Positions 25,818 to 42,481 of a DNA stretch of 42,481 nt are shown one piece after another. Within the stretch, counting starts at the first letter, position 1; each line of letters starts with the position of its first letter. The stretch lies in the IMG/VR virus record IMGVR_UViG_3300020200_002993, positions 1-42,481 of that record. One strand, given 5' to 3'. Source of the stretch: a virus. A program made the position numbers and the translations under genes. The notes beneath the pieces are model-generated. The model was not told the DNA's origin. It searched no databases and saw nothing but the letters and a program-made list of their open reading frames with translations.

Positions 25818-26545
25818 ACAAAGGCAATGTTATTTTTATTGTTAATACTTTGCGACTTGAGTCCGAGAGCATACTTCACCAATGCTCCCCATTTTTCCTC
25901 CAACTGGAGAGGAGTGTAAATCTGGGGACAAAATCTATCCTCACGCTGGAACTCGAGAAACTGAACAACCCTTTTTAGTTTCTCATACCCTTCTCTCTCC
26001 CATAACCGCTGTCCGGCTTCGTGCTGATTCCTACGAAGAAAGAGTCGCTTGTATGATGGATTTAATTCTTTGAACAAATCGATGACAAGACGACCGTCCC
26101 CCATGGGGGGACTATAGGGGGGTATTCTTTCATTCTTATCATTCTTATCATTCTTGGTAGATGTTGTTTGTCTGTTGTTTGTCTGTTGTTTGTCTGTTAG
26201 GTTGCCTGTTGATGTGCCTGTTGGTTGGAAACCCTCTTTTTGATAAAAGTCATATTTTGTAATAGTAATCAGACGAAATCTGTTTGTTGATTTGTTTGTT
26301 ATTTCGCCTGTTGAAATTAGACGAATGATTGAAGTGCGTACGGATTGTGCCGAAAGTCCTGTATTTTCAACAATACTTGGAATACCGGTTATCAGTTGTC
26401 CCCTCTTAACTTCAATCCCTTTCCAATTCTTATTTTCGTGATTTGCGGAAAGCAAGAAATATAAAAATAACTTGAGAGTTTTTTCCTCTTTGAACCATTC
26501 CCACTCAAGCATCTTGCGATGTAATTTTATCCATCCATTTTCCAT
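25814..26545 (-). CDS. Replication initiation / DnaD-like protein
   Basis: 243 residues. The start MENGWIKLHRKMLEWEWFKE and a winged-helix segment (GQLITGIPSIVENTGLSAQSVRTSI, then LISTGEITNKSTNRFRLITI) match the N-terminal domain of phage replisome-organiser proteins. A Gln/Asn/Thr-rich linker follows (TDKQQTNNRQTTSTKNDKND), then a helical C-terminal domain. Such proteins bind the origin, often within their own gene, and load the host helicase. The repeated TTGTTTGTCTG in the linker DNA near 26165-26200 is a candidate origin iteron. The ATG at 26545 was chosen by family pattern. Confidence 0.75.
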   Translation of the reverse strand: MENGWIKLHRKMLEWEWFKEEKTLKLFLYFLLSANHENKNWKGIEVKRGQLITGIPSIVENTGLSAQSVRTSIIRLISTGEITNKSTNRFRLITITKYDFYQKEGFQPTGTSTGNLTDKQQTNNRQTTSTKNDKNDKNERIPPYSPPMGDGRLVIDLFKELNPSYKRLFLRRNQHEAGQRLWEREGYEKLKRVVQFLEFQREDRFCPQIYTPLQLEEKWGALVKYALGLKSQSINNKNNIAFV

Positions 26546-26557
26546 ATTTGCAATGCA

Positions 26558-26613
26558 AAAGGAGCGAACGGCTGGGATTGGCTCTTGGGGAACCAATGAC
26601 CGTGCGCTCCTTT
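26558..26613 (-). other. Highly structured leader of the replication-initiator gene
   Basis: Three stacked stems: AAAGGAGCG/CGCTCCTTT (26558-26566 with 26605-26613), ACGG/CCGT (26568-26571 with 26600-26603) and ATTGG/CCAAT (26577-26581 with 26593-26597). In the message this large hairpin ends 12 bases before the ATG at 26545. It may control translation or be part of the origin. Confidence 0.65.
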
Positions 26614-26658
26614 CGCACAACAAATTAAGTTGTATCCCAAGATTTTTCCCATGCCAAA

Positions 26659-26695
26659 AGTATGAACATTAAATAAAAAAAGTCAATGTGGATAA
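26659..26695 (-). promoter_or_regulatory. Leftward promoter of the replication operon with TTATCCACA box
   Basis: On the minus strand TTATCCACA (26687-26695) abuts TTGACT (-35, 26681-26686). CATACT (-10, 26659-26664) follows after 16 bases. The start near 26652 gives a leader of about 105 bases containing the stacked hairpin. Confidence 0.68.
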
Positions 26696-26713
26696 CCTGT
26701 GGACTAAATGTGA

Positions 26714-26740
26714 AAACCCCACTGACTGACAGTGGGGTTT
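26714..26740 (-). terminator. Strong terminator at the end of the late block
   Basis: AAACCCCACTG (26714-26724) and CAGTGGGGTTT (26730-26740) form a perfect 11-base stem with a five-base loop. In the leftward direction TTTTCA follows. It closes the lysis genes and insulates the replication promoter at 26659-26695. Confidence 0.85.
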
Positions 26741-26759
26741 CGTTCCCGAACGTCTCCTT

Positions 26760-26906
26760 TTAGTCATGATGATGCGCAATTTCAGTGTTCAGCCGGATGG
26801 CTTTAATTGAAATGCGCCTCAAAACTCCTGTTTTGAAGCGAATAGGAACACGACGGCTAAAGATACGCTTGAGCGCTTGTTTCTTTATGACCCTTAGCGT
26901 CGAGAT
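26760..26906 (-). CDS. Possible 48-residue basic protein lacking a standard start codon
   Basis: An open frame reading STLRVIKKQALKRIFSRRVP, IRFKTGVLRRISIKAIRLN and TEIAHHHD, strongly basic and protein-like. It lies between the 91-residue gene and the terminator. No ATG, GTG or TTG is present. A perfect AAGGAGGTGA ends seven bases before an in-frame ATC at 26904-26906. It may start at ATC or be reached by a -1 frameshift from the upstream gene. Confidence 0.35.
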   Translation of the reverse strand: MSTLRVIKKQALKRIFSRRVPIRFKTGVLRRISIKAIRLNTEIAHHHD

Positions 26907-27169
26907 AGGAAATCACCTCCTTTCTGAAACAATTCCAGTTGTTCTTGCCACGCTTCGTGCGGAAACGGAGGACTGTCATGCGCGACTTGCCGTGGATGAA
27001 GTAGTTCGTTTCCATGCGTATGTGTCACAAGAAAGATTTTCTGACAGCGAATGCCGCAGAAGTAACCGTTCTCGTCTTTAATAGCTCCTTTCCCAACCCA
27101 AGAAAGTGGGAATGAAGCTCCGCATTCAGCGCACTTAACATGCCCGTGTTCGTATTGGTCTTCTCTCAC
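26894..27169 (-). CDS. Zinc-binding protein in the lysis operon, 91 residues
   Basis: Starts at a GTG overlapping the M23 peptidase stop (GTGA). CAEC (near residue 13) and FCGIRCQK (near 38) form a four-cysteine zinc site. The C-terminal half has many His and Pro residues (THTHGNELLHPRQ) and ends KGGDFLSRR. I do not know the function. Its place after an endolysin-like gene is no proof of a lysis role. Confidence 0.62.
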   Translation of the reverse strand: MREDQYEHGHVKCAECGASFPLSWVGKGAIKDENGYFCGIRCQKIFLVTHTHGNELLHPRQVAHDSPPFPHEAWQEQLELFQKGGDFLSRR

Positions 27170-27753
27170 AATATACCTTTTTGTTTTAGGATTTCCCTTC
27201 CAAAGAACCGATTGATGAATCTAGCTACATCTTCCCACTTGAAGCGCGGAGAAGTCAAGTATTCATAGTCATCTGCAAAATATCCATTATAGTATTTTGA
27301 GAAATCAAAGGTATTATTTGTTGCTGGGTCTGTGTCAAGACGTGTGTTTCCGTCAGGAGAAAGCCGGTATGCAGAAATATGTGTGTGCGCTCCTGTTGAG
27401 AATCCGGTGTTGTCCGCAACCATAAGCGGAGTCCCTACTTTCACAATGTCATTCTTCTTTACAAGCAACTGTTTCCCATGCATATAGAAAAACTGTACAA
27501 AACAATCAGTTCCCTCTGCGTTCACAAGGTCAAGTGTTCGGTATTTTACATAGATGCCAGCTCCATCATTTATACCGATATCGGTTACTATTCCGTCACA
27601 CATTGCAACTACAACACAGTCTTTATCTACAGCAAAATCAATGCCGTTATGTTTCTCAAATCCAAATTGCCGATAGGCGAGGTTAAAAATGCCCCACGCT
27701 TGTGTAACTACATAGGGCTTAGCCGGATACCACAATTCGAGTTTTCGTGCCAT
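27166..27753 (-). CDS. M23 family metallopeptidase (endolysin or virion peptidoglycan hydrolase)
   Basis: 195 residues with the LytM/M23 zinc site: KHNGIDFAV (H-x3-D) near residue 35 and GAHTHISAY (HxH) near 122, with the usual beta-rich core (VVAMCDGIVTDIG, VKVGTPLMVAD). M23 enzymes cut peptide cross-bridges of peptidoglycan. No signal peptide is seen, so release would depend on a holin or on being carried in the virion. The downstream gene overlaps by GTGA. It lies after a coiled-coil membrane gene. Confidence 0.85.
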   Translation of the reverse strand: MARKLELWYPAKPYVVTQAWGIFNLAYRQFGFEKHNGIDFAVDKDCVVVAMCDGIVTDIGINDGAGIYVKYRTLDLVNAEGTDCFVQFFYMHGKQLLVKKNDIVKVGTPLMVADNTGFSTGAHTHISAYRLSPDGNTRLDTDPATNNTFDFSKYYNGYFADDYEYLTSPRFKWEDVARFINRFFGREILKQKGIL

Positions 27754-27805
27754 ATAAGCGATTTTAGTGTGTTTAAGAGTGTGTTTCTTCTAAGAATAAA
27801 CCATT

Positions 27806-28135
27806 TCATTTACCAAAGATTATATCACGAAGACCAGTCCAAACTGCTATCAGTGCGCCCGTGACTAGCAGACCCCACATAAAAAGTTTTTTCACGACAC
27901 TCATATCTCGATACCACTCACGCATTGGAGCAGAAGCTTCAGCTACTTTTTGGATTTCTTTAAGAATTGCGTCATAGCGTCTTTCAGAACTTTCCAAAAG
28001 TTCCTGAAATCTGCCAGAAAGATTAGCAAGCATATTCTCGGTTTTTGATACATGTAACTCTATTTGCACTTTCACGTAATCTTCAATTTTATCCTCAATT
28101 ATTTTTTTAATGTTTCCTGGTAATTGATTTTTCAT
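27806..28135 (-). CDS. Coiled-coil protein with C-terminal membrane anchor (lysis-associated)
   Basis: 109 residues. Residues 1-75 are helical and charged (KIIEDKIEDYVKVQIELHV, RFQELLESSERRYDAILKEI). A hydrophobic segment (LFMWGLLVTGALIAVWTGL) precedes a short tail. The layout is like XhlA/hemolysin-type lysis accessory proteins and some spanin or holin partners. It overlaps the end of the ejection-protein gene by four bases and precedes the M23 peptidase. Confidence 0.68.
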   Translation of the reverse strand: MKNQLPGNIKKIIEDKIEDYVKVQIELHVSKTENMLANLSGRFQELLESSERRYDAILKEIQKVAEASAPMREWYRDMSVVKKLFMWGLLVTGALIAVWTGLRDIIFGK

Positions 28136-31100
28136 AGTGATATTGAAGGAATATTTATAGATGGAATTGAAATACTTGGAATGGAAATCTTTGGTATTGA
28201 AATACCGCCTCCGGTTCTTTCTCGTTTTTCTTGTTCCTTAGTCGCGCCTCTTCCGTATTGCCAGTAATAAAATTTTCCAAGAAGCGGAATGTTTTGCGGG
28301 GTTTCAAATCCTTTTTCCGTTTCTCCAGTAAAGAACCGGTTGGCGTCACGAACCAAGTTATCCACAATGTTTGTGGGTGGAAACAGTAAATCCTGCATTG
28401 CCGCCCCCACTCCTTCTTGTCGCGCCTTATTTGTAAGATATCTATTGATTCCAGCAAGACGTAGAGTGTTATCAACCACTAAGTCTCCGGGGTCTATGTC
28501 GCGTCCAAGGATGGTATCGATTATGACATCTGCGGAAGCATTGGCGACCATGAGAAATGCCGCCAACTCAAGCACGCGGAAAATTGCTTCTTTCGGCTCG
28601 TGTTTTGCAATATCTTTAATTTCATCTACATAAAAATTTAGTTGTTTGATTTGCCACGATTTAAGCATGTAGAAAATCCGTCCGTTACCGGCAGTAAGAT
28701 ACGCTTCCGGCATTTCAGAGAGAGCAATAGGTTGCACATCGGCAAGTTCATTGAAGGCAAGTGCGCGCACATTCTCGGTTATTTTTCCAGAACGCAGGTC
28801 AGCAAGAACAGCTTCAGTATTGTCCCCAAAAAACTCTTCAAGGCGGCGTTGCATACGGGGCGTAAGTTTCCCTTGTTGAGCCATCCGCTGGTAACGCGCA
28901 ACAACTCCATTCATCAATGCTTCTTTACCGATTGCATCTATCTTTTCGAAACCAGTGACTTTGAGCATTTTTGAAAGCCACCGAGCAAGACGACTCTGGT
29001 CACCAAATTCAGCAGAGATGCGTTCTATTTGTTGTGGAATGACATCCCCAACTTTTATATCTGACTTACCAAGGACTGCTTTAAGCCATGCAGAAAGATA
29101 ATCACTCTTTGCGTCGTACATACCAGTCCCAAAATCACCAATTTGCCGCAGTGCAGAAAACGGATTTCCGATGGTAGCCATATATGTAAGATTTTTGAAA
29201 CCGGATACTATACCGCGTGTCCCAGTTTCCTTCATACGCGCTTGAAAAATTCGCATAAGCGCAAGATGGTCTTCATGAGAAAATGTCCCCGCCTTTTCTA
29301 GTTTTAGGATTCGCGCCCCAAGAGAACCCATCACATCGGACAATTCTCCATCTTTTCCTTTAAGGTTAAAGAGACGCGAGTATTGGATTTTTTCCGCCAT
29401 GTTACGCAGATAGAAAGCAAGAGCATCTGGTGCACCCGTATAAAACTTTGCCATTTCTGGTGTGACGACATCAACTGTACGATGAGGAATAATGCCAATT
29501 TCACGAACAGAAATTCCATTTACACGCCGACCCATCATAAGACGGTTGATGACATCTGCCTGTTCCACAGTATTCAATGCGCGCCCGATTCTTGTTGCTT
29601 CCCGTTTCAACGCTTCGTTAAAGAATTTCCAGTTGTCTGCCGCCCCGAAAGTGTCTCGAATGTAATTCATCAGCCCCCGTGGGTCTGCCACATGACGCGG
29701 AAAGAAATCTTCAAGGAAAGATACTTCAACTCCAGCCGCTTTTGCTTCATCAAAGATTTTAGTGAGTGTTTTGAACGACTCTGAAAATGTTCGACGCAGA
29801 CCATATTTGTCAGCAACATCTAAAAGACGCGCTCGGTCTCGGCGCAGAAGTGCAAAGTTGAGGTCTATGTAATCATCTGCTGACGCGCGGGAGATTTTTT
29901 TCAACCCATCAAAGAGACCCGTAAATTCATCATTCCGTTTTATCATCCAGTTATTCATTCCAATTTCCAATTCACGCGCTACACGTTTTAGTTCAGGATG
30001 TATCTGCTTCAAGCGAGACGAAATAGAACGCCCATAACGACCAATTAAACCGTCTTCACTCTTTAGTTTAGAAAGTTCTTTGAAAATGAACGATGTCTTC
30101 TTTTCTGTCTTCAAAAATTCTCTTGTTTTATTGATGAATCGTTTACCAAAACCGCTTTCAGAACGAATAATGTCTCGATACTGTTGATATTCTGCCGGAG
30201 CAGGAGAGACTCGCGAAACGGGCGCGCGCATCGGTTCTCCCTTTTCTAGTCGGCGTTCTTCAAAACGCGCTTCTTTCATTTCTTTTCCAAGACGGCGTTC
30301 TTCTGCAAATACCTGTTTAGTGAGATTTTTTTCGCGGTCTAGTAGTTCAAAATAATTCGCTATATCCGCGCGCGCTGTTTCTGAATCTGGGTAACCAAGT
30401 TCAGTCACAATATCATCACCCCGTTGCTTAAATTCACCGCGTCCACGGACTCCAAGAACTTCTGGCAACTCTCGTGTTTTTTTATTTACATACTTTATCA
30501 AGTTCCGTGCCGGATGACTTCTTATAGTTTCTCGCAAATTTGTAAGTTCCGTGCGCTGGTACGATACTGCTCCCTGCTCTTCAAAGATTTGAGAAATACT
30601 CCGAGCAGTCGGTTCTTCTTCAGCACCAAAACGCAATAGTCCTGTTTCAGTTCCAGTTGCTTCTTCCATAGCGCGCGCTTCAGGAAATTCCATAAGTTGC
30701 TGTTCGTGAAGTGTCGGTGTAACTTCCGCTCCAGCGCGTTGTGCTTCTAACTTTGCTATTCGTGTTGCTTCTTGCTCGGCAAGAATCTGTTTCTGAACTT
30801 TCGGATGTAATTTTTCAAATTCAATTTTTGGTTTTGTTGCATTCGCTTTATTCCAGATGTCGGTGAGTTGGGATATATTTTTTGAATCCAATAAATCTTG
30901 TTCATTATTATATGAATCAAGAAAAATGTTTTTTTCTCCCTTCTTAATTTTCTGCAGAGCGAATTCTTCTGCTTTTTTAATGGAAGTAAAAACCTCTACA
31001 TCTCTATCTATTCCTTGTTTTCCAAACATTACTTCATAAGTATTTCCTTTCTTAATTGAACGTGTCCTCACAAACTCCTCCGCGCTCTTATACTTTCTCG

Positions 31101-31809
31101 CTTCTTGTGCGAGAGGTTCAATTTTTGGTTTTTCCATAATAGGCGGTGGTATTTCTTTCGGCGTTTCTATTTCTTTTCTTATTGATGGCTTCAATGCACC
31201 AGTTTCAATGAGACGAATCTCATTGTTAAGTTTATTCGCCACTTTCTGCGGATTGGTTTCCCGCATCAGATTTTTTGACACATTAACAACGCGTTCTTCA
31301 GAAATGTTCGGAACTTCTTTCTTTACTATGTCATAAATGGTTTCAAATCTCCGCGTTTGTGCGATTGTCTTCACGACATCTTCGGCAGCATTAAATGCGC
31401 GTCGACGCAGACCGCCTCCGGGATAAACATCAAGCACTCCACCAGCCAATACTGCAAATGGAGAAATAGCTCCAGCTGTTACTGGTGAAATACCGATGTC
31501 TTCAAGAAATGAAGAAACAGATTTCTCTTGTTCACCCAAACTCTTTACTGGACGTTCACCAAAAAGAAATTTTTCTGAAGGAGTCACGGGAATCAATTCT
31601 TTTTCACCACGAGCCGTTAAAGTCGCCGCGGCGGCAGCTCTGCCCGGTGCGCGCAAGATTTCTTTCCCCACTTCAAGTGCTTGACCCGGTATTTCTCGGA
31701 GAATATCTCGCACGCGCACTTTATCAGGAACAGGTTCAAAGAAGCCCCGCTTCTCTTTTTTCGGGGCTTCAATGTTTATTGACGGAATCTTTATTTCAGA
31801 TACTGCCAT
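28132..31809 (-). CDS. Very large internal virion (DNA-ejection) protein
   Basis: 1,225 residues, largely helical, with no recognisable catalytic domain. The N-terminal region is Ala-rich (GRAAAAATLTARG); charged, coiled regions follow (EERRLGKEMKEARFEERRLEKG). A C-terminal third has hydrophobic helices (AIFRVLELAAFLMVANASADVI). Size, composition and place next to the tail and lysis genes match the large inner-core/ejection proteins of short-tailed phages. The repeat IP-S-I-[NS] occurs at both ends: KIPSINIEAP near residue 8 and SIPSISIPSINIPSISL at the C-terminus. The gene begins two bases after the neighbour's stop. Confidence 0.78.
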   Translation of the reverse strand: MAVSEIKIPSINIEAPKKEKRGFFEPVPDKVRVRDILREIPGQALEVGKEILRAPGRAAAAATLTARGEKELIPVTPSEKFLFGERPVKSLGEQEKSVSSFLEDIGISPVTAGAISPFAVLAGGVLDVYPGGGLRRRAFNAAEDVVKTIAQTRRFETIYDIVKKEVPNISEERVVNVSKNLMRETNPQKVANKLNNEIRLIETGALKPSIRKEIETPKEIPPPIMEKPKIEPLAQEARKYKSAEEFVRTRSIKKGNTYEVMFGKQGIDRDVEVFTSIKKAEEFALQKIKKGEKNIFLDSYNNEQDLLDSKNISQLTDIWNKANATKPKIEFEKLHPKVQKQILAEQEATRIAKLEAQRAGAEVTPTLHEQQLMEFPEARAMEEATGTETGLLRFGAEEEPTARSISQIFEEQGAVSYQRTELTNLRETIRSHPARNLIKYVNKKTRELPEVLGVRGRGEFKQRGDDIVTELGYPDSETARADIANYFELLDREKNLTKQVFAEERRLGKEMKEARFEERRLEKGEPMRAPVSRVSPAPAEYQQYRDIIRSESGFGKRFINKTREFLKTEKKTSFIFKELSKLKSEDGLIGRYGRSISSRLKQIHPELKRVARELEIGMNNWMIKRNDEFTGLFDGLKKISRASADDYIDLNFALLRRDRARLLDVADKYGLRRTFSESFKTLTKIFDEAKAAGVEVSFLEDFFPRHVADPRGLMNYIRDTFGAADNWKFFNEALKREATRIGRALNTVEQADVINRLMMGRRVNGISVREIGIIPHRTVDVVTPEMAKFYTGAPDALAFYLRNMAEKIQYSRLFNLKGKDGELSDVMGSLGARILKLEKAGTFSHEDHLALMRIFQARMKETGTRGIVSGFKNLTYMATIGNPFSALRQIGDFGTGMYDAKSDYLSAWLKAVLGKSDIKVGDVIPQQIERISAEFGDQSRLARWLSKMLKVTGFEKIDAIGKEALMNGVVARYQRMAQQGKLTPRMQRRLEEFFGDNTEAVLADLRSGKITENVRALAFNELADVQPIALSEMPEAYLTAGNGRIFYMLKSWQIKQLNFYVDEIKDIAKHEPKEAIFRVLELAAFLMVANASADVIIDTILGRDIDPGDLVVDNTLRLAGINRYLTNKARQEGVGAAMQDLLFPPTNIVDNLVRDANRFFTGETEKGFETPQNIPLLGKFYYWQYGRGATKEQEKRERTGGGISIPKISIPSISIPSINIPSISL

Positions 31810-31810
31810 C

Positions 31811-33532
31811 TTATTTCCCTCCCGGAAGAGTTTTTGCTACAAGGGAACGACCTTTAGGGTATTTTTCCTCAATAATTTTGAGAATAGCTTCTCGTTGCCT
31901 CTTTGAGAGAGTAACGTTTTTTCCATTGATGATAGCCACCCCCACATCACGTATATATTCTACCGCTCTAGTTTTTTCAGTTTCTGCCCCCGCGAAAATC
32001 GAAGCATTTGCTTTCAAAAAGCCCTTCGCGATAGCTTGTAAATTATCTTCACTTAATGGTGTTTCTTTCACAATTCCTTGAGAGGTCAGAAGCGCATCTA
32101 CATCAGTTACGGACAATCCTTCAAGACGCAACAAAGCGGAACGTAGTTGTTCAAAGGAAGCATCAGGATTGGCGTCGATGATTGATTGCGCATTATCGTA
32201 AGCACGATTTTGTCCACCAGCTTTATCAATGGCAAGTTGCAACCGTTGTTGTGCAATCTCTAATTGCGTCGCTGTCTTCGCTTGCGAAAGTTCCAATTTT
32301 GCCTGATTAAGAACAGTAGTGATATCTGCTGTTTCCTGCAAACGAGTCTCACGGATTGATTCAACGGTAGGCACAAGTTTATTTCCTACTACAGCAAGAC
32401 CAACTTTGTTAAGTTGTTCAATCGCGTCTTTTCTTCCATCTTGCGCTTTTTTCACGATTTCTGCGACTCCTTTCAAAATGCCTTCACGCAAGTCGAGATT
32501 GATGTCCAAAAGTTTTGATGCAAGTGTCCGGTCTACACCCAGCTCTTGGACAGCAAGCCGGTCAGCGAGGGCTTTTACCTGTGTCGAGCGAATACCAGAC
32601 ATGAATAAACCTCGCTTCCCCAGTTGGTCTTCAAGTTGTGCACGCTCCGACTCGTAACGCGCCTCCAACTCATCTTTTGCTTGTTGTGCTTGTGCGTCAG
32701 CACTCAACCCCTGTAAATCGTATCTTGCTTTCAAATTCGCAAAATCAGAAGAGTTGAGAAAGTCGTTAAAGAGTTCCATCTCATCTGGTGATTTTGGAAT
32801 GATGTCAGACGCAGAAAAACCCAAACTACTCTTAGTTGATTCGTCCTTCGCTTCTGACGCTGTTTTTAACGCGCCCGTTTCATCTTTTACAATTTTTTCT
32901 CCAGCAGCGTCAGCAACAGGGACAGGAGCCGCTTTTACTTCGCGCAAGATATTTCCTTTTGCGTCGATTTCTACTTGCGCGCCTGTGGGCAAAGTAACGG
33001 TGCGCGTTTGTCCTAATGTTTCCACTGCCTCTTTAGTAGGCGCTTGTGCTTCTGCTTTAGTGACACCAAGAGCAGTCGTAGCTTCTGCTGCGGTTGGTTT
33101 AGGTGTCTGTTCCTGAACAAAAGGAGAAATTGCAGGAAGCGGTTCTGGCGCAGGTAATCCTGTTTGTGGCAACTTTGTCTGTATTGCGCCGGGTTGAGTG
33201 ACGGGCGCGGTTGATTTGAGACCAGATAGTAATGGAGAAAATGCACCAGTTAATCCTGTAAAAAAATTGGATAAAGAAGGCGCCTGCTGTTGCGGTAACG
33301 ATGTAAATTGAAGCGCCGTAGAAGCAGGAAGTTTTCCTGCTGCTGCCTGTTCGCCTTGCACAGTTTTTAGTAGTGCTTGGTTTTGGGAAGGCGTGCCGAC
33401 AAACGCGCCAAGACGCTTATCAAGACCTAAGTCGGTAAAACGCTTTGAGCGCGCGCGGAGTGAAGTGTCTTCGCCTAGCGCGCCAAGCGCATTGATGGTT
33501 GCATCGACTGATGGAAGGTATGGAGTAGCCAT
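31811..33532 (-). CDS. Internal virion protein, coiled-coil rich, 573 residues
   Basis: The ATG at 33532 has GAAGGAGAA at good spacing and was chosen over an upstream start. The first 200 residues are Pro/Ala/Gln-rich and low-complexity (PLPAISPFVQEQTPKPTAAEA). The rest is strongly helical (ARYESERAQLEDQLGKRGLFMSG). GLFMSG then RSTQVKALADRLA is a pattern seen in virion proteins of several short-tailed phages. It probably travels with the large neighbour protein and is ejected with the DNA. Confidence 0.7.
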   Translation of the reverse strand: MATPYLPSVDATINALGALGEDTSLRARSKRFTDLGLDKRLGAFVGTPSQNQALLKTVQGEQAAAGKLPASTALQFTSLPQQQAPSLSNFFTGLTGAFSPLLSGLKSTAPVTQPGAIQTKLPQTGLPAPEPLPAISPFVQEQTPKPTAAEATTALGVTKAEAQAPTKEAVETLGQTRTVTLPTGAQVEIDAKGNILREVKAAPVPVADAAGEKIVKDETGALKTASEAKDESTKSSLGFSASDIIPKSPDEMELFNDFLNSSDFANLKARYDLQGLSADAQAQQAKDELEARYESERAQLEDQLGKRGLFMSGIRSTQVKALADRLAVQELGVDRTLASKLLDINLDLREGILKGVAEIVKKAQDGRKDAIEQLNKVGLAVVGNKLVPTVESIRETRLQETADITTVLNQAKLELSQAKTATQLEIAQQRLQLAIDKAGGQNRAYDNAQSIIDANPDASFEQLRSALLRLEGLSVTDVDALLTSQGIVKETPLSEDNLQAIAKGFLKANASIFAGAETEKTRAVEYIRDVGVAIINGKNVTLSKRQREAILKIIEEKYPKGRSLVAKTLPGGK

Positions 33533-33549
33533 TGGTTCTCCTTCAATAT

Positions 33550-34173
33550 CTAATATACACGCTCTACAATAAATTGGCGAATGGATATAGTGTTGCCCGC
33601 CAAGGCATTCGACCATTGAGCAGTTACTGCAAAGATTCTAGTCAGTGTGGTGTTGATAGTTGCCGTTGCGGTATTTGGGTCATCTTTTGACACATTGTTC
33701 ATCGAAGCGGTCATATGCGATTCAATCGTTCCCGATGAGCCAAGAGATGCTATCGTACCGCACCAAATCAGATGCCATGGCGCATTGGTTACGGAAGCCG
33801 CTGTGGAAGTCATTGAATTAAGTTCAGTGGTTGCTGCATTGCCGATGCCGACGCGCACAGTTACAGTGTCCACCCCGTTTGCTGTTGAGTACACTCCAAA
33901 GGCAGTAATCTTGAAAGTCCCATTTGGTTTGAGTCCGAACTCATTCGAAGGAATAACTATGGTGGCGAGATTTGTTTCGGTGGCAGTGGTGTTTACAGTT
34001 GTCACAGTCGGACTTGCGATTAGTGTCTTTTGGAGCGTCACAGAACTGCGAGTTGAAAGACTGGGAAAGAAGCGTCGGTCATACACAGGCGTTTCATCAA
34101 ACGACGCAAAAGGAACTTCTGGTTTTACAAAATCCTCGCGCTCCTTCAAAATTTTAATTTCGTCGTTGCTCAT
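33550..34173 (-). CDS. Predicted tail or virion surface protein, 207 residues
   Basis: Thr/Ser/Ala-rich and almost all beta (VTTVNTTATETNLATIVIP, GTFKITAFGVYSTANG). Its ATG overlaps the preceding stop (ATGA). The charged N-terminus MSNDEIKILKEREDFVKPEV may attach it to the virion. The fold resembles jelly-roll head or tail fibre modules by composition, but no family is recognised. Confidence 0.68.
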   Translation of the reverse strand: MSNDEIKILKEREDFVKPEVPFASFDETPVYDRRFFPSLSTRSSVTLQKTLIASPTVTTVNTTATETNLATIVIPSNEFGLKPNGTFKITAFGVYSTANGVDTVTVRVGIGNAATTELNSMTSTAASVTNAPWHLIWCGTIASLGSSGTIESHMTASMNNVSKDDPNTATATINTTLTRIFAVTAQWSNALAGNTISIRQFIVERVY

Positions 34174-35912
34174 GCGGGTATCACTTCTGTGTTGTTAAGA
34201 ATAAACCCATTGAAAACAGAAGCATTGTTTTCTCCGTAAGCAGCAATCCGAAAACCGATTCTCCACCCCTGTGCTTCTGCAGGAAATGACAGTTTTGTAT
34301 AAGGATATTTTATTGTGCCAAGAGGACGATACTCACTCACACCGCGCGTATTCATTACTCGATACGAAACATGCCATGTTCCACTTTCCACATAGGCAAG
34401 AAACTCATTAAATTTTTTGTAAAGTTCGGGGCGTGTTAAGTCATAAAGAGGAGTTTCAATGTATGCAGAAACCGGTACCCCCGCATTGTCGGCTATTAAA
34501 TCAGAGAATACATCACTGCCGCGTAAAGCCGTATTTGTGTCGTAATTTCGGTTCTCAAAAAGACGATACATCTGACCAGAGAATGCTCCAAAAAATGCGG
34601 CGTGTATATTCTGTGATTCTGCGTCGCTGTCGCGCCATCTGTTGAATGAAATAAGATGCCCTATGCTGGTAGAAAATCCAGTCCACACTTCCCAATGTTT
34701 TGTTTGCGTATCATACGCAAGGATTATGTTTTGAAGAGAGGTTAATTGACCCACATCTCCTTCTCGGAGATAGAGACAATACTTTTTCCCGATTCTTGCG
34801 GCAGAGAAGAGTGTTTCGACCCGCCGGTTGGTGTCAAAAGTCGGACGCGCGTTTTCCCAGAATTGGCGCACCGGCTCACCAATGTTTTTTGCCTCTACGC
34901 CGTTAGTTGCGAAAATCCCTTCGGGACAGAATGTGTAAATCAGCCCATCAATTTCCACAGGAACTTTGTTATTCCATGCCCCCACATGAGAAATACGTTG
35001 TTTCAGTTCCACTTCGTCGAAGGTAAAAGTTGAATTATATTTGAAAATAAGCAATCGGTCATTTAAGACGCGAAATCCCGTTACTGGTTCGCCACGCTGG
35101 TCTTCCACGGAGAAATAATCTGCCGCTGTCCATGAAGTGCCATCAGCGCGCGCAGAAAACGACACATTGTATGGCAATCCTGTTGTTGAAGCGCCGCTAC
35201 CCGCGCCTGCTCCATAGAGGCGGTCTCTATAATTTGTCATAAACAACACTGCGGGAGGAGACCCTAAATCAGTCAATGTTTCTGCATCGTTGTTGTTGAT
35301 ATATTTTGTCGCATCAAGTGCATTGATGAAACAGATATTGTTCAGTGTTGAAAAAGTGACTCCTGCCGTTCCTGTTATGTTAGTTGCCGGTTGCGTAAGC
35401 GGAACCCATTGATGCACGGCAGCACTACCGGGAGATGAAGTGCTATGGGCAACTCTAATGCCAGAACATCCAGTAAAAGTTGTCCCACCACCACCCAACC
35501 CTGTATAGGTGATTAAATCGCCGTCTATTTCTATGGTGCCGCTTGCATCAAAACCGGTAGTGCTTGAAACAGTTATGGTTACATCAGTCGTTGCGACACT
35601 TGTTGTCAAACGAGTTGTTCTTAAAACTTCAATAGCAGCCGTATTTGCTCCAGCATTTGTTGCTCTAAGAAACGAAGTAGTACGCGTATTAGAAGCGGTT
35701 GATGAGCGAGTAAAAACATAAGACGCTATTATTGCGTCACTTCCCGTATCAGTGCCAAAAAGTTGTGAACCACGCCGGACGGTAACCCGTCCTTTTTTAT
35801 CCAACTCAACATTCCGAGCTTCAAACAGCTCGTTCTTGTCAAGTTCAAGTGGGGATTTGTCCTTACGGACGCCACCACTGAAGTTAAAGATTGGATAGGC
35901 ACCGATTTTCAT
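34170..35912 (-). CDS. Tail hub / DNA-stabilisation-type virion protein, 580 residues
   Basis: It starts MKIGAYPIFNFSGGVRKDKS, then LDKNELFEARNVELDKKGRV and TVRRG, the recurrent N-terminus of tail-knob and stabilisation proteins (gp10/tubular-B-like) of short-tailed phages. Within about residues 90-165 is an inserted beta module (TDVTITVSSTTGFDASGTIE ... TFTGCSGIRVAH). The body is beta-rich with repeated aromatic strands. It should plug the portal or form the tail nozzle. The gene lies two bases upstream of the next tail gene's end. Confidence 0.75.
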   Translation of the reverse strand: MKIGAYPIFNFSGGVRKDKSPLELDKNELFEARNVELDKKGRVTVRRGSQLFGTDTGSDAIIASYVFTRSSTASNTRTTSFLRATNAGANTAAIEVLRTTRLTTSVATTDVTITVSSTTGFDASGTIEIDGDLITYTGLGGGGTTFTGCSGIRVAHSTSSPGSAAVHQWVPLTQPATNITGTAGVTFSTLNNICFINALDATKYINNNDAETLTDLGSPPAVLFMTNYRDRLYGAGAGSGASTTGLPYNVSFSARADGTSWTAADYFSVEDQRGEPVTGFRVLNDRLLIFKYNSTFTFDEVELKQRISHVGAWNNKVPVEIDGLIYTFCPEGIFATNGVEAKNIGEPVRQFWENARPTFDTNRRVETLFSAARIGKKYCLYLREGDVGQLTSLQNIILAYDTQTKHWEVWTGFSTSIGHLISFNRWRDSDAESQNIHAAFFGAFSGQMYRLFENRNYDTNTALRGSDVFSDLIADNAGVPVSAYIETPLYDLTRPELYKKFNEFLAYVESGTWHVSYRVMNTRGVSEYRPLGTIKYPYTKLSFPAEAQGWRIGFRIAAYGENNASVFNGFILNNTEVIPA

Positions 35913-35913: not shown

Positions 35914-37302
35914 TTAAGAAGCGCTTACATTAGTAGGTGTATCATTTGGATTACGGAAACGAAGCGTGGGCGAGACGACCTCATACTCATCCTTTACTTC
36001 GTTAAAAGCACCGGTGATTTTTAGTTCATAGCGGTCTTTCAAGCGCTTGAGCGCGCGCTCATAACGCGCCTGCAAGCGGTCGTGCAATGTTTCCTTTTCA
36101 AGCGTAATTGCAAGGTCAGATGACACACCCAAGCAAAGCACAAGCGGTTCAGGAATCGCTGTCTCATCATTACGCGCTGAAAGGTCAGTCGGTTCTACCT
36201 GCGCTGTGTATACAATGTCTCGCTCGGTAACTGTTGCGTCGTCAGCGTGCGTAGATGCAGTTGTTCCTTCACGCGCTCGAACGCACCCAGTGAATGTAGT
36301 TGAAGTTGATGCTGTCGCATAAATAACCTCTGAATCAATAATGAAACGGAAGTAATCACCGCGTTTGAAGCTACTCGTCGAATCAACTGTTATCGTTGTC
36401 GATGCCGCTGTAAGCGCTCCATTAAGCGCCGTTGTTCCCGCTGCCGTTGAAGGACGCGGATATACTTTGAGTTGGTTATTCCACACCATTGCGTGTGACG
36501 GGTCAGCTGTAGAAGTATCCGTATCCCAGTGATATATGTCCCATCGCGCATGGTCAATAATAGCAAGCGGTTGTGTCTCAAAACGCACTGTATGGAGCGC
36601 CTTTATTACCGCAGTGTCTAGGTCATACGCGAACTGGTTTGCCACCGCAGAAAACGAGCGTTCTATCTCGTAGAAACTCCACAAACGTTCGTGTGCAATG
36701 TCGCGCTGCCAATCATTGATAGCATCGATAATTTCTTCATCAGACAACTTGAAAGTATCTGGCTCCTTGACGAAGGTACGAATTTTCTGAATGAGTTTTG
36801 TAAGAGAACGTGCCGTCTGTCCGGCATACGGCATTGCGTCCGAGTAAGGGGAGTTTGCGCCAGAAGCAGAATTATTCCACCGCGCAAATCCAAAGCCGGT
36901 GGTGTTTGTTGTGTCGTCGTAGCGCGTTTCTTTGTCATCTGGCTGGATTTCATTGGTCGCCAGAACGGTCTTTGCGCCAGTTTCAGTTGCGGCGCGAGAA
37001 AATTCTACGCGATTATAGTCAATGCGATATACCGGTTCATCTATGGAGTGGGCATAGCGAGCACCACCGCTTCCTGCGTTGTCAATCGTCAAAGAAGTGC
37101 CATCAGAAACCACTCCGTTGATTTGGAGAACTTCCGCATTTTTTGTGCCGATTTCACCAACGATAATCCAATCATTGTCAGCCCACGCATTCGTATCAAC
37201 CGCTTGCACAGTTAGCGTTGTTGCAGCGGCAGACACTGCCGCGGTGAGATAGGTCTTTTCCCGGTTGTAGGTTAAGTCCTCATTACGAACAAGTAGAAGC
37301 AT
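35914..37302 (-). CDS. Tail adaptor protein with inserted beta modules, 462 residues
   Basis: It contains helical head-to-tail connector-like segments (LTKLIQKIRTFVKEPDTFKLSDEE, RLQARYERALKRLKDRYEL). Two copies of a beta module surround them: near residues 25-95 (TTLTVQAVDTNAWADNDWI) and 290-355 (TTITVDSTSSFKRGDYFRF, then TFTGCVRAREGT). The ATG at 37302 is preceded by GAAGGACA. The SDEEIIDAINDWQRDIA segment suits tubular-A type adaptors that bind the portal. Confidence 0.72.
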   Translation of the reverse strand: MLLLVRNEDLTYNREKTYLTAAVSAAATTLTVQAVDTNAWADNDWIIVGEIGTKNAEVLQINGVVSDGTSLTIDNAGSGGARYAHSIDEPVYRIDYNRVEFSRAATETGAKTVLATNEIQPDDKETRYDDTTNTTGFGFARWNNSASGANSPYSDAMPYAGQTARSLTKLIQKIRTFVKEPDTFKLSDEEIIDAINDWQRDIAHERLWSFYEIERSFSAVANQFAYDLDTAVIKALHTVRFETQPLAIIDHARWDIYHWDTDTSTADPSHAMVWNNQLKVYPRPSTAAGTTALNGALTAASTTITVDSTSSFKRGDYFRFIIDSEVIYATASTSTTFTGCVRAREGTTASTHADDATVTERDIVYTAQVEPTDLSARNDETAIPEPLVLCLGVSSDLAITLEKETLHDRLQARYERALKRLKDRYELKITGAFNEVKDEYEVVSPTLRFRNPNDTPTNVSAS

Positions 37303-37324: not shown

Positions 37325-38578
37325 TTATGTCCTAATTCTCACAATTGGGTCAAATTGCCGTAAGCGCAATATCGGGATTTGGCTAGAGTGCGGAGCTGTT
37401 GTTGTGGAGCTGGTACTGGTAGAACTGCTCGTCGAAGTGCTCGTTGAGGTAGAAGTTGAGGTGGTGGAACTGCTGCTCGATGTCGAACTTGATGTGCTGG
37501 AACTGGAAGAAGTGCTTGATGATGTACTCGTCGAAGACGAAGTGCTCGTTGAGGTAGAAGTAGATGAGCTGGTGCTTGTGCTTGAACTTGTGCTTGACGA
37601 GGTGCTTGTGGAAGATGATGTTGAGGAAGTCGAGGACGATGTAGAAGTTGAAGAAGAGGTGGACGAACTCGTGCTCGTGCTGGAACTTGTGCTCGTGCTT
37701 GTGCTCGTAGAGCTTGAAGTAGTTGATTCGGTATTTGAAGTTGTGGTGCTTGACGATGTTGAAGACGAAGTTCCTGAAGTTGTGCTCGATGAAGTTGAGG
37801 TGGATGTTGAGGAAGAAGAACTCGTACTTGTTGAAGTAGAGGTGCTACTTGATGTTGAGGTGCTGGTTGAAGTTGAAGAAGAGGTGGACGAACTCGTGCT
37901 TGTTGAAGTTGAAGTAGATGTTGAAGTAGATGTTGAAGTAGAGGTGGAAGAGGTACTCTCAGGAGGAATTGATAATATATATGACCGAATATCATCTGAT
38001 GAAGAAGCCGTGAAAGACAAAGTATCAGACCCTGCGGGGGAGACAACTCCATCAGAATCTATAACACCAGCACCACCACCATTGACAACTTGGGCATCAC
38101 CTGAACCTGCTGTCCATGTTCGTTGTCTATCCCCTATTAGCCAGACAATCCAACAATTATCAGCAATAGTAGTCAATGATTTAGACAATTCCGTAAGACC
38201 ATTTTGTTCTGAAGTATCATTGGCATCAGGCACTCCAGCAGTATTAACACCAGAATATGAAGCTCCTGCAACAACAAAATCAGCTAATGAATTAGACCTA
38301 GAAGCAATCAAATCATAAGTTCCAATATCAGGAGTAGTCAATTGGTAATGTTTGATGGATGCAAAATCTCCGCCACCAAAATCTATATAATTAGCATAAA
38401 CTTCGGTCATTGCGTCTCCGTTCCAAGTGCAACCTGTAATGACATTCGCAGATGACGGCGCACGAGCATAAACAGTTGCAAAGACAATGACATTTGAGCC
38501 AGACACAGTAAAATTAGCCGTCACTGTAGATGATGACGAACTAGAACCTGAACCTGAACCTGCGCGTGTGATTGCCAT
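37325..38578 (-). CDS. Virion surface protein with a mucin-like Ser/Thr tract, 417 residues
   Basis: Residues 1-205 form a compact, beta-rich, lectin-like domain after a Gly/Ser start (GSGSGSSSSSSTVTANFTVS), with VIVFATVYARAP and WIVWLIGDRQRTW among its strands. Residues about 207-395 are almost purely Ser and Thr in alternation. A short tail (SSQIPILRLRQFDP) ends the protein. The ATG follows GAAGGAATCC at good spacing. A tract of this kind is the classic substrate for dense O-glycosylation, and glycosyltransferase genes lie on the same transcript. The start of the neighbouring glycan cluster is 350 bases upstream. Confidence 0.82.
   Translation of the reverse strand: MAITRAGSGSGSSSSSSTVTANFTVSGSNVIVFATVYARAPSSANVITGCTWNGDAMTEVYANYIDFGGGDFASIKHYQLTTPDIGTYDLIASRSNSLADFVVAGASYSGVNTAGVPDANDTSEQNGLTELSKSLTTIADNCWIVWLIGDRQRTWTAGSGDAQVVNGGGAGVIDSDGVVSPAGSDTLSFTASSSDDIRSYILSIPPESTSSTSTSTSTSTSTSTSTSTSSSTSSSTSTSTSTSSSTSTSTSTSSSSSTSTSTSSSTTSGTSSSTSSSTTTSNTESTTSSSTSTSTSTSSSTSTSSSTSSSTSTSSSTSSTSSSTSTSSSTSSSTSTSSSTSTSTSTSSSTSTSSSTSSSSSTSSSTSSSSSTTSTSTSTSTSTSSSTSTSSTTTAPHSSQIPILRLRQFDPIVRIRT
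37394..37960 (-). repeat. Low-complexity Ser/Thr-coding tract
   Basis: About 190 codons of Ser and Thr. Synonymous codons (AGC, TCT, TCA, TCG; ACA, ACT, ACG, ACC) are mixed, so the protein sequence, not a DNA repeat, is what is conserved. The antisense strand reads as a long open frame of Val/Glu/Leu, a by-product. Confidence 0.85.
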
Positions 38579-38931: not shown

Positions 38932-39597
38932 TTAGTATATCACTCCGGGGAAGGGTTCGGGAAGCATCGCCGGCTCTCCCTTATAAAAGGCATATCCTCG
39001 CGCCCATGGTTCATTCCGAAACGAATACTTCTTCAAATAAGAAAGATGATAGAACCGATGCGGTAATGTTTTCACAAGCGGGTGCTTTTTCCAGTAAAGC
39101 TTTCTTCCCTCTTTGTCAGTCGGCATGTCTTCCGGGTATGCCCCTTTATAACACAAATCTTTGTTGCGTAAAAATTTTGAAAATGACTTGTTCTTCCACG
39201 AGACATCATAATGTTCCGCATCTAAGAGCTGCCACGGAGTGACTGAATAAGCGAAATATTTGTCGCCATCTTTTTTGATTTCTTCAAGGCATTTTTTAAG
39301 CGTATCTGTTTCCCACCAATCATCATCATCTAAAAATAATATCCAGTCCTCTTTTGAGCGTTGCACTTGGATATTTCGCACTTCAGTTAAAAGAGCGGAT
39401 CGCGCCGTTCCTTCCCACGAAAAGTAAATCTTTTTTGGGAACTCTTCCATTACTTTCAAAATTTCTTTGTAAGTATCATCTCTTGAAAAGAGAGAGAGAG
39501 CTATATCCATTCTGTCCACGAGGGGTGCAACTTGGCGCAGAACATCCCCGATATAGGGCATCCCGTTCTTGACGATTGTATTACTTGCGATAGTCAT
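38932..39597 (-). CDS. Family 2 glycosyltransferase-like protein, 221 residues
   Basis: MTIASNTIVKNGMPYIGDVL and IQVQRSKEDWILFLDDDDWW (DDDD near residue 91) place it in the GT-A group. The C-terminal half is Trp/Tyr/Lys-rich (SYLKKYSFRNEPWARGYAF), which suits acceptor binding. The ATG overlaps the previous stop (ATGA). It ends the glycan cluster, 17 bases before the next virion gene's start. Confidence 0.8.
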   Translation of the reverse strand: MTIASNTIVKNGMPYIGDVLRQVAPLVDRMDIALSLFSRDDTYKEILKVMEEFPKKIYFSWEGTARSALLTEVRNIQVQRSKEDWILFLDDDDWWETDTLKKCLEEIKKDGDKYFAYSVTPWQLLDAEHYDVSWKNKSFSKFLRNKDLCYKGAYPEDMPTDKEGRKLYWKKHPLVKTLPHRFYHLSYLKKYSFRNEPWARGYAFYKGEPAMLPEPFPGVIY

Positions 39598-40238
39598 GTG
39601 TTTTTTGCAAGTCCAATGAGATGATTGCCAATAACTTTCATTTCAGCGTTACCAAACACTTTCAAAAGTAATTCATATAGCATTTTCTCATCATACATCC
39701 GCACATGCTCTTCTGTTTCTTCCGGAGACGAGCAGTTATTCGGCACAGCGGCAAAGAAGATACCGCCGGGATTGAGCTTACTCTTACACTTACGCACAAA
39801 TTCCTCATCGCACCAAAGATGTTCCAAGAGATGATTCGCCACAATAAAATCAAAATTCTTCTCAAGTTTATCCACTTCATAAGCGTTCATGACAGCGCCG
39901 TCAATGCCATATTCTTTCTTCATTCGGTCAATCGCCACTTGCGAGATATCTATGCCAAAAAGTTCCGCGTCGGGTTTTATCTGCTTCACTCCAAAGAGAA
40001 GTCGTCCGTTACCACATGCTACATCCAACACAGAACGCGCCTTATACTCACCAACCTTCCACCACGCATATTGCATAGAATACTTTTCTACGCGGCGACT
40101 TGGGCGTGTCCACACGCTGTCCCAGTATTCTTTTGTATTTGCTCTGTCTGCCATTGCTTTTAAGTAAGTTATTTTGTCATCATGCCGCCAACGCCGCCAT
40201 ACTTCGTCCCAGTAGGCGGGGTTGTTACAATCAACCAT
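39594..40238 (-). CDS. SAM-dependent methyltransferase, 214 residues
   Basis: A class I fold with SVLDVACGNGRLLFG (motif I), ELFGIDISQVAI and FDFIVANHLLEHLWCDEEF. A Trp-rich N-terminus (YWDEVWRRWRHDDKI and EYWDSVWTRPSRR) looks like a duplicated short motif. The ATG at 40238 has GGAGGAG at good spacing. The gene overlaps both neighbours. A glycan-cluster methyltransferase; substrate unknown. Confidence 0.85.
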   Translation of the reverse strand: MVDCNNPAYWDEVWRRWRHDDKITYLKAMADRANTKEYWDSVWTRPSRRVEKYSMQYAWWKVGEYKARSVLDVACGNGRLLFGVKQIKPDAELFGIDISQVAIDRMKKEYGIDGAVMNAYEVDKLEKNFDFIVANHLLEHLWCDEEFVRKCKSKLNPGGIFFAAVPNNCSSPEETEEHVRMYDEKMLYELLLKVFGNAEMKVIGNHLIGLAKNT

Positions 40239-40779
40239 TTTTTCTCCTCCAAATTTCCCATTTAGTACTCGACACCAAATCATGAGTTTGTAGCAGATAA
40301 GTTTCAAGACGGCGTTGGTTTGACGTTTTATGAAATTGAATCACAAACTGCTTCACACGCACGAACCAACCATGCTCGTACAAGTCTTCAAGAATGTCAT
40401 ACTCCGCACCTTCGCAGTTAATCTTCAAAACATCCACATCAAAACCCGGCATAAAATTACTCAACTTTGCGGTCTTCACTCTCAACAAACGGTCGCTCTT
40501 TGCCCATTCTTTGAAAAGAGAGCTGCTCGCGTCTTTAAGATACAGCACATCTTTTCCCTCATGACCAGATAGAGCTACCTCATAAAAACAACCGACCTTA
40601 ATCCGTTCTTTTGCAATTTTAAGAGCTTCCGGATTCGGCTCAAAGAGCGTAAATACCGCTTCCGGTTTCTTCATCCAAACCTCAATAGAGAAATCACCTT
40701 TATACGCACCGCAATCAAACACTACCGGTTTCTCCGGCAATTCAAGTTTATCTACAAGATTAGAAAGCCTTTCTGTCAT
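40231..40779 (-). CDS. FkbM family methyltransferase
   Basis: 182 residues with VVFDCGAYKGDFSIEVW, FTLFEPNPEALKIA, DVLKINCEGAEYDILEDL and FVIQFHK, the successive FkbM signatures (FDxGAxxGxxS, EPxP, KxDxEGxE). FkbM proteins O-methylate sugars and secondary metabolites. Overlaps ATGA-style with the upstream gene. It is the second of three consecutive methyltransferases. Confidence 0.88.
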   Translation of the reverse strand: MTERLSNLVDKLELPEKPVVFDCGAYKGDFSIEVWMKKPEAVFTLFEPNPEALKIAKERIKVGCFYEVALSGHEGKDVLYLKDASSSLFKEWAKSDRLLRVKTAKLSNFMPGFDVDVLKINCEGAEYDILEDLYEHGWFVRVKQFVIQFHKTSNQRRLETYLLQTHDLVSSTKWEIWRRKNG

Positions 40780-41300
40780 ATTTTTTCTGCTATAACTAAA
40801 ATGTTTGGGAGACGATGACGCGTCCTACTTTCACCGTAACGAATATAACTGTGCTTGCGCTTTATTAAAATAATACGAAATCCCAATTCAGGCAACAATT
40901 TGTCAAACTTTTCCCGATACCAACCATCGCGATGAAATGCCCAATCTGCCTCTTGGCTCCCATACGCATGCTGTACCAGATGTGCTTTATCCGCATAATA
41001 CGTCTTGTCAAAGAAATGCTCGCATATACCCTCAAAGTCAGGCGTTTCCACCAGAATAGTGCCACCCAGCTTTAACCATGAATGCCAAAGTTTAAGCACT
41101 CTGATTCCTTCCTCACGGCTAAAATGTTCCAAGAGATGGTACGCAATAATTTCTTCAAGATTCTCAAAGTGAAGTGTGCGAAAATCAGCGATAATGTCCG
41201 CGCCGGAAGATGGTTCAATATCTATAGTGGTAAAGCCCGGATGCGGCATTTTACCGGAGCCGATTTCAATGCGCGTTGCAATTTTTGTAGAAGCAATCAT
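40776..41300 (-). CDS. SAM-dependent methyltransferase (type 11), 174 residues
   Basis: IEIGSGKMPHPGFTTIDIEP at residues 11-30 is motif I with its acidic strand. ADIIADFRTLHFENLEEIIAY, HLLEHFSREEGIRVL and WLKLGGTILVETPDFEG complete the fold. Length is minimal for the family. Starts by ATGA overlap with the upstream glycosyltransferase. Confidence 0.85.
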   Translation of the reverse strand: MIASTKIATRIEIGSGKMPHPGFTTIDIEPSSGADIIADFRTLHFENLEEIIAYHLLEHFSREEGIRVLKLWHSWLKLGGTILVETPDFEGICEHFFDKTYYADKAHLVQHAYGSQEADWAFHRDGWYREKFDKLLPELGFRIILIKRKHSYIRYGESRTRHRLPNILVIAEKI

Positions 41301-42064
41301 TTTACTTGTTCAGTTATGTTCTTAAAAAAGAGATGGCTGCTGTCTTCTTTCTTAAAATAAGTGTTCCGCAATGCGCGATACGCAAATATGCCATGCTTGT
41401 CCACAAACTTTTTCTTTGATTTCTCTGATTCAATATTCCATCTCCTGTAATGCAAGCTACGCGTATTTCCAACCACATGAGCAACGGTAATCTTCTGTTG
41501 CGTGACCGATTCGATGCCATTCAAGTGAAAACGCCATGCAAGGTCTAGGTCGTCGCAACCCCATTCGAACTGCTCGTCGAGATGTCCTATGCGAAAAACC
41601 GATTCAAGTCGGAACAAAGCGCATGCACCTTGCATAAGTGGAACAACCCCATCAAGATTTTTTGTCAATTCATACGCCCTGTTAAGGAAAAGCGAATTAC
41701 CAGATTCAATATATCCCGGAGATACGCACCAATGGTCTCTTAATCCGCGTTTCACTTCCGAGTACCAATTTGGCAAAAACAGAAGGTCGTCATTGAAAAT
41801 ACCGAAATATCCATAACATGATTGATTGCTTTTCATCCCTTTTTCTTTCAAGATGCTCTCAAGAATCGGTTTACTTGTTTGATTTCCAAGCATGTTGGTC
41901 TTGTATTCAATAATCTTCTTTCCGTCAGCGCGCACATACACATTACCCCGATATTGCACATGAAGCCGTATCTCATCCCACCCTTCGGTTTTTGAAATTG
42001 AACGGATAAAAGAATCCCAGATTCTTTGATTTGTCGTGATAACAACAATGTCAGTTGTAAACAT
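41297..42064 (-). CDS. Family 2 glycosyltransferase, 255 residues
   Basis: MFTTDIVVITTNQRIWDSFI, a GT-A beta-strand start, with FGIFNDDLLFLPNWYSEV (metal motif NDD), QGACALFRLESVFRIGHLDE and the GCDDLDLAWRF acceptor-side motif typical of rhamnosyl- and related GT2 enzymes. The ATG at 42064 is inside the end of the preceding gene by 14 bases; a GTG 11 codons upstream is less likely. Stop overlaps the methyltransferase start. Confidence 0.86.
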   Translation of the reverse strand: MFTTDIVVITTNQRIWDSFIRSISKTEGWDEIRLHVQYRGNVYVRADGKKIIEYKTNMLGNQTSKPILESILKEKGMKSNQSCYGYFGIFNDDLLFLPNWYSEVKRGLRDHWCVSPGYIESGNSLFLNRAYELTKNLDGVVPLMQGACALFRLESVFRIGHLDEQFEWGCDDLDLAWRFHLNGIESVTQQKITVAHVVGNTRSLHYRRWNIESEKSKKKFVDKHGIFAYRALRNTYFKKEDSSHLFFKNITEQVK

Positions 42065-42481
42065 AATGTCGTAAATGTTCGGGAATAGGAATTCCACAAT
42101 GACCTTTTTTATGGAATCTGTAATCGTGGCGCCGACTTTTGCGCCGCCAATCCCCTAAATGAATAAAATAATTTTGTAATCGACGACACAACACCGGTTG
42201 GTTAGCCCGTGATGAAACTTTCTTTCCGCAATATGCCAACACCTCTCTTCCATACGGGTTTACCCATTGGATATCGTGGGTGTTGCGAAAAAGTCGCGCA
42301 ACTTGCAAATCAGTATGCAGAGCAGGGTCAAGAATTTTGTCATCTTCTATATGTAAAAACGGAATCGAATACACAGAAACCGCACCGTCCACTGAAACAA
42401 TTTCTTCCATCGTTTCTTTGGGAAAAATCTCATCATCGTCAATTTTCAAAATCCAGTCAGTAAAAGTGTTGCGACGCATAT
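42051..42481 (-). CDS. Family 2 glycosyltransferase, C-terminal part (runs off the window)
   Basis: Open at the window edge. It continues after NTFTDWILKIDDDEIFPKE, the metal-binding section, with VARLFRNTHDIQWVNPYGRE and a C-terminal His-rich segment (GDWRRKSRRHDYRFHKKGH). The first 45 codons match the last 45 of the fragment at 1-387. Joined through that overlap, the two halves give a complete enzyme of about 226 residues, in line with small GT2 enzymes. Confidence 0.82.
   Translation of the reverse strand, partial: MRRNTFTDWILKIDDDEIFPKETMEEIVSVDGAVSVYSIPFLHIEDDKILDPALHTDLQVARLFRNTHDIQWVNPYGREVLAYCGKKVSSRANQPVLCRRLQNYFIHLGDWRRKSRRHDYRFHKKGHCGIPIPEHLRHYVYN
42345..42481. repeat. Right copy of the diverged terminal direct repeat
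   Basis: Direct repeat of 1-137 with 126 of 137 identities, in the same gene frame. Substitutions include amino-acid changes (Asp/Gly, Pro/Ser, Ala/Arg), so this is not an exact assembly overlap. Confidence 0.85.

Follow-up and report, generated by a model that had tools for sequence, protein, structure and literature searches.

Gene order in related phages suggests that a linear metagenomic phage contig closes inside a glycosyltransferase gene of its late glycan cassette

The complete circular phage genomes recognized by CheckV and IMG/VR as DTR contigs carry a direct overlap of their two ends, of the type left by the assembly of a circular or circularly permuted template, and their gene order closes upon joining. 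The CheckV rule given in PMC8116208 is that both contig ends have to carry a repeat of 20 bp or more, and we read this repeat as having to be exact. A second related situation is found in the mycobacteriophages, where glycosyltransferases are encoded by the phage and its own virion proteins carry the glycans, which are reported at the C-termini of the capsid and tail tube subunits (Freeman et al. 2023, cited in PMC12619734). The DNA analysed here, referred to as the window, is the complete IMG/VR record IMGVR_UViG_3300020200_002993 (42,481 nucleotides), which is classed as linear and in which the Caudoviricetes markers terminase, portal and major capsid are present (phrog_2, phrog_156 and phrog_9953, respectively). 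Like the DTR contigs, the window has a direct repeat common to both ends and a gene order that closes; unlike them, its overlap is imperfect, as 11 of 137 bases differ. Counted from base 1, identity extends over 15 bases and base 16 already differs, leaving the very start and end short of 20 exactly repeated bases, and the linear label probably results from two ends that overlap without an exact match. Like the mycobacteriophages, the phage encodes its own glycosyltransferases, whereas its candidate acceptors are long tracts composed only of Ser and Thr in separate fibre-like proteins.

The overlap relates bases 1-137 to bases 42345-42481, and its ungapped alignment gives exactly the 92% identity that the initial annotation had claimed over 137 bases (126/137 identities), with both copies read, as was also claimed, in the same codon frame on the minus strand. 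Two regimes can be distinguished. The first 126 bp (1-126 against 42345-42470) are 96.0% identical with 5 mismatches (blastn E 3e-53) and represent the strongest self-match within the window, while the last 11 bases (42471-42481) form a diverged, almost unrelated tip in which 5 of 11 positions are identical. Indeed, mismatches occupy 7 of the final 14 positions as compared with 4 of the first 123 (binomial P ~1e-7), so that the contig end is a diverging tip and not a random error scattered over the overlap. Upon translation, the copies read MRANTFTDWILKIDDDEIFPKETMEEIVSVDDAVPVYSIPFLHIE and MRRNTFTDW...VDGAVSVYS..., with seven codons changed between them. Since four of these seven are synonymous, including AGG to CGT, which both encode Arg, the codon pattern fits a real, selected allele rather than random error. 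A direct repeat of plausible length at both ends could also stem from physical terminal repeats of a linear, T7-like virion genome, yet copies of that kind are expected to be identical and not to differ at 11 of 137 bases, and the gene containing the repeat is continuous in relatives and belongs to the interior of a cluster of overlapping genes; the probability of this explanation is extremely low.

Joining the ends completes a glycosyltransferase, as the initial annotation had proposed. The open reading frame that runs from 387 to 1 continues in frame from 42344 to 42051, giving 226 aa plus a stop in a single reading frame. The part that is open at the contig start (1-387, minus strand; allele A) encodes the N-terminal 129 codons of a GT2 glycosyltransferase, and the part that is open at the contig end (42051-42481, minus strand; allele B) encodes codons 85-226 and its C-terminus. 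The joined protein scores 37.6 bits against the GT2 profile PF00535, above the curated cut-off of 23.3, and it aligns end to end with a glycosyltransferase of the relative G001 (L003, 9992-10669) that is also 226 aa long, 49% identical and spans both halves. No match to the joined protein was found among GenBank phages. Its nearest solved structure is 7msp (PDB), SunS, the peptide glycosyltransferase of the SPbeta prophage, and this similarity covers the GT2 part (residues 7-126). The match is weak (E 8e-5), and SunS modifies a bacteriocin peptide.

The split gene lies within a glycan cassette on the minus strand that extends from 2898 to 38932 through the join and comprises GT2 enzymes, SAM and FkbM methyltransferases and an asparagine-synthase-like amidotransferase. 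Its first gene encodes a SAM methyltransferase (2374-2898, PF08241), followed by the amidotransferase (1067-2413, PF00733 and PF13537), which starts at the ATG at 2413 and reads MCAIAGG, and by a GT2 glycosyltransferase (384-1097, PF00535, 52.6 bits) directly upstream of the split gene. The latter starts with an ATG at 387 that overlaps the stop of 384-1097 (ATGA). Downstream of the split gene are two genes with no Pfam match, 41297-42097 (ATG at 42064) and 40776-41300, which overlaps its neighbours by 4 bases; next come an FkbM-type methyltransferase (40231-40779, PF05050), a SAM methyltransferase (39594-40307, PF13847) and a second cassette GT2 glycosyltransferase (38932-39597, PF00535), about 25% identical to the split one. 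Apart from the cassette, a second group of glycan genes is found on the minus strand at 16669-21857 and encodes a GT2 protein of 667 aa, a methyltransferase, an epimerase-like protein and a GT1. In G001 and G009 both glycan groups are united in one cluster.

The overlap by itself could not decide whether the ends join, while the relatives can. Three independent cassettes (G001, G009 and G007) each contain one full-length homologue of the split glycosyltransferase, located between homologues of both genes that flank the ends. In G001, the homologue of 384-1097 is upstream of the glycosyltransferase and that of 41297-42097 is downstream. The G009 cassette (L034), 72% identical to L003 at the DNA level, has one such gene only, with the same neighbours as in G001, and so does the G007 cassette (L036, which equals L035 at 99.99%). 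In particular, the upstream homologue directly precedes the glycosyltransferase in L003, L034, L035 and G007, and the downstream one directly follows it in the cassette relatives. In the three cassettes, homologues of the genes at 40776, 40231, 39594 and 38932 come next, the first two in either order, and the gene order across the join is thus the uninterrupted order of G007, G001, G009 and L035.

The same comparison bears on the mismatches, for which the initial annotation had offered either strain variation or tandem paralogues. If two similar glycosyltransferase genes were adjacent and the rest of both copies were missing between the contig ends, 11 differences in 137 bases and an abrupt drop of identity at the end could be expected, and glycan cassettes do carry several GT2 genes, one of which (38932-39597) is nearby. 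The three independent relatives, however, have no more than a single copy, flanked by the same two genes, and the only other GT2 gene there, about 25% identical, is far from 96%. Moreover, joining without any missing piece already yields the exact protein length of a relative, while a tandem pair at 96% would be unique to this phage and would need such a piece. Tandem paralogy is quite unlikely on these grounds, and strain variation is the favoured reading of the two.

The larger gene order leads to the same point. G007 (IMGVR_UViG_3300002460_000071, 41,356 bp, uncultured) carries on one strand (6926-31208) the portal and capsid genes, homologues of the genes at 4052 and 3545, the cassette with this glycosyltransferase and then tail genes, that is the homologues of 35914, 34170, 33550 and 31811. 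It resembles the window in the order of head, cassette, split-glycosyltransferase homologue, Ser/Thr protein and tail on a single strand, and it differs from it in the identity of most proteins, which is only about 32-64%, and in an interruption of about 0.9 kb within the capsid gene. In G005 (39,826 bp), the terminase, portal and capsid genes, the homologues of 4052, 3545 and 3062, a glycosyltransferase homologous to 384-1097 and then the homologues from 35914 to 28132 follow one another on one strand, from the terminase at 39519 down to the 28132 homologue at 17705. The G005 cassette is devoid of the split glycosyltransferase, which is a point against the join. In G010 and L030 the head genes are likewise followed by the tail genes on a single strand, a cassette being absent from that position, and G014 is opened in the same interval, ending in the capsid gene and beginning in a Ser/Thr protein that is followed by tail genes. 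As markers of this order, the window has the major capsid gene for the head module (4804-5817, minus strand, phrog_9953 8e-51) and the tail gene 35914-37302 (minus strand, phrog_11439). In G005 and G007 the cassette separates the homologue of this tail gene from the head genes, and in G010 and L030 the homologue is found downstream of them.

The joined map without the overlap is about 42.34 kb long, and a closed map of 42,344 bp is in keeping with the lengths of the relatives: the larger ones of the same capsid family measure 39.8-42.7 kb, and two circular GenBank records with a distant capsid, MW202566 and the TM7 phage DolZOral124_53_65, measure 38,956 and 38,840 bp. As the relatives, themselves metagenome contigs, hold one glycosyltransferase between the same two neighbours together with the head-to-tail order, these sequence comparisons make it highly probable that the window ends belong together and unlikely that the contig is a fragment, a confidence that covers the join only and excludes the function of the cassette. 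No close strain of this phage was found, the best relatives being about 50-75% identical in single proteins, and therefore both alleles are seen in no other genome. Different alleles at the two ends could also be produced by a chimera of two phages with a common cassette, the ends then not deriving from one genome; such cassettes are indeed common to lineages with different head genes, as G001 and G009 have no capsid match despite the same glycan block. Against this, the window contains a single set of terminase, portal, capsid, tail, replication and lysis genes, the joined order equals that of G007, G005 and G010, and G+C near the join is alike on the two sides (43.7% and 42.3%), which leaves the chimera very improbable.

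With the ends belonging together, the window would be an almost complete, circularly mapping tailed-phage genome derived from short metagenomic reads, with the break of the contig falling within one glycosyltransferase gene of the late glycan cassette. Two or more alleles of this gene would be present in the phage population, with 96% identity in the overlap and an abrupt divergence at about codon 88, at a mosaic boundary, and the assembler would have followed a different allele out of this fork at each of the two ends. The mismatches thus most likely represent two co-existing alleles with an abrupt mosaic boundary, and the break in the contig probably arose at the allele fork where the assembler failed. 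Two relatives, which are also linear in the record, have similarly imperfect overlaps at their ends: that of G001 is 149 bp long with 1 mismatch, and that of G007 is 144 bp long with 3 mismatches and pairs 182-325 with the last 144 bases, thus beginning 181 bases off the start.

Protein scans with the capsid protein alone, as well as with the protein of 34170-35912, gave no relatives, and a three-member capsid alignment did find them; at the DNA level, nothing was found for 28132-35912 among GenBank phages. The capsid relatives include a Woesebacteria MAG contig (LBWB01000016, L040; 40%) and a TM7 phage (MG269973; 27%), in addition to a contig from a Campylobacteraceae MAG (30%) and phages of Myxococcus (about 27%). 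The first two hint at a Patescibacteria host, as one candidate among others in view of the Campylobacteraceae and Myxococcus phage matches. The capsid gene of G013 is split by a group I intron (L030 5504-5760; Rfam RF00028, 84.8 bits), and interruptions of about 0.8-0.9 kb are present in the capsid gene of G007 (9843-10760) and in the terminase genes of L028 (4799-5572) and L030 (413-1240), the last three with no Rfam match. Divergent from the terminase, the window carries on the plus strand (12404-14777) an amidoligase_2 gene (PF12224) and then a class-II glutamine amidotransferase-like gene. The region 446-2000 of G005 may be a distant counterpart of this pair, as its first gene matches at E 6e-4 and the second gives no match. 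A reciprocal closure of G005 through the pair beside the terminase was left as suggestive in view of these two results.

After joining, a run of minus-strand genes with short gaps extends from 10160 to 26894. This late module begins with the terminase large subunit (8661-10160, minus strand, phrog_2 2e-31) and proceeds through portal, capsid, a Ser/Thr protein, the glycan cassette, a Ser/Thr fibre-like protein and tail genes to lysis. The late minus-strand genes had been described as uninterrupted, and they do lie on one strand, with no opposing gene of known homology found by homology searches in the joined run. For the coupled operon that had been proposed to unite 38932-42481 with 1-2898, the run coordinates are right and joining yields one tightly overlapping cluster; translational coupling in it is plausible because overlaps of 4 to 77 bases are common among the cassette genes. 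A single late transcript is only partly supported, in that gene order and translational overlaps would fit it. The minus-strand promoter placed at 10287 is not supported, as a scan finds no consensus there and the TATAAT at 10278 belongs to the plus strand, just before the open reading frame 10292-10753. Between that position and the terminase start, there is a strong hairpin on the minus strand (10178-10200), which is terminator-like in the scan and reaches -26 kcal/mol with flanking pairs (z -5.2); it would sit in the leader of a transcript begun at 10287. At the end of the run, the terminator proposed at 26714 corresponds to a real hairpin, an inverted repeat at 26713-26742 (minus strand) with a stem of about 12 bp (-19.7 kcal/mol, z -4.3), and a second inverted repeat is present at 26815-26840. 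Beyond the hairpin at 26714 are a DnaD-like gene (25814-26623) and an Erf-like gene (23531-24049), so an early module probably begins there. The window contained no tRNA and no Rfam match.

The join sets the glycosyltransferase and methyltransferase cassette between two Ser/Thr-tract proteins, and this arrangement recurs in relatives. The first is a short protein (2900-3049, minus strand) that consists of MAEFDTVIDVSLTW followed by 33 consecutive Ser/Thr residues and MP. The second is a virion-like protein of 417 aa (37325-38578, minus strand), with an N-terminal part of about 207 aa, a Ser/Thr tract and a short C-terminal tail. Its tract includes 183 residues in runs of 8 or more, the longest being 110, and is not a DNA microsatellite since all ten Ser/Thr codons are used. 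Ser/Thr-tract proteins were present in 9 of the 9 relatives examined, with loci in G007 (23704-26148), G005 (26483-31460), G001 (19078-25541), G009 (44599-46317) and G010 (23964-27443), as well as in G014, L028, L029 and L030. They are located at the head/tail boundary or flank the cassette, contain up to 357 Ser/Thr residues in a row (G007), and tails similar to PELEIKxITPILEIKR are found at the end of many of the long ones. Homologues of the glycan cassette are present in 8 of these 9 relatives, the exception being the 16-kb piece L030, and no cassette homologues were found in the pieces searched of 6 capsid relatives that are more distant and have no long tracts (L026, L031, L040, L041, MW202566 and the TM7 phage). 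A lectin-like domain (PF13385) was found in one relative only, G010. In a scan of the collection for Ser/Thr-coding DNA, the matches listed were mostly poly-Ser or poly-Thr repeats, many of them probably the antisense of acidic repeats. Mixed runs more than 50 long with at least 7 codons and balanced Ser and Thr occurred at three loci among the matches listed (L134, L089 and L126), and two of these three pieces also carry a homologue of the window glycan genes, numbers too small to count as a test.

On the basis of gene position, the Ser/Thr proteins would belong to the virion, and the gene neighbourhood indicates that the cassette most likely builds and caps glycans on the phage's own Ser/Thr-rich virion proteins. 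Self-glycosylation, of the kind reported for the mycobacteriophages, is suggested by the cassette neighbourhood, the tracts in relatives and the likeness to SunS taken together. We tentatively propose, with slightly less than even confidence, that the late module is a self-glycosylation system in which the cassette coats the Ser/Thr-only tracts with capped glycans, forming mucin-like bristles on the particle. As the block is also found in phages with no detectable capsid relation (G001 and G009), it would then represent a transferable surface-coat module.

The join itself is an ordinary assembly-closure result, and its value lies in the closed map and in the module that it reveals. Indeed, what was recorded as a linear fragment becomes a closed map in which one late module is restored. 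Since G001 and G007 show the same imperfect end overlap, strain variation at the break can hide closed phage genomes from rules based on exact repeats, and such genomes can be recovered through the gene order of relatives. In parallel, the position of the cassette between two Ser/Thr-tract proteins makes virion self-glycosylation directly testable, and, if self-glycosylation is true, the allele fork that broke the contig would reflect fast glycan variation.
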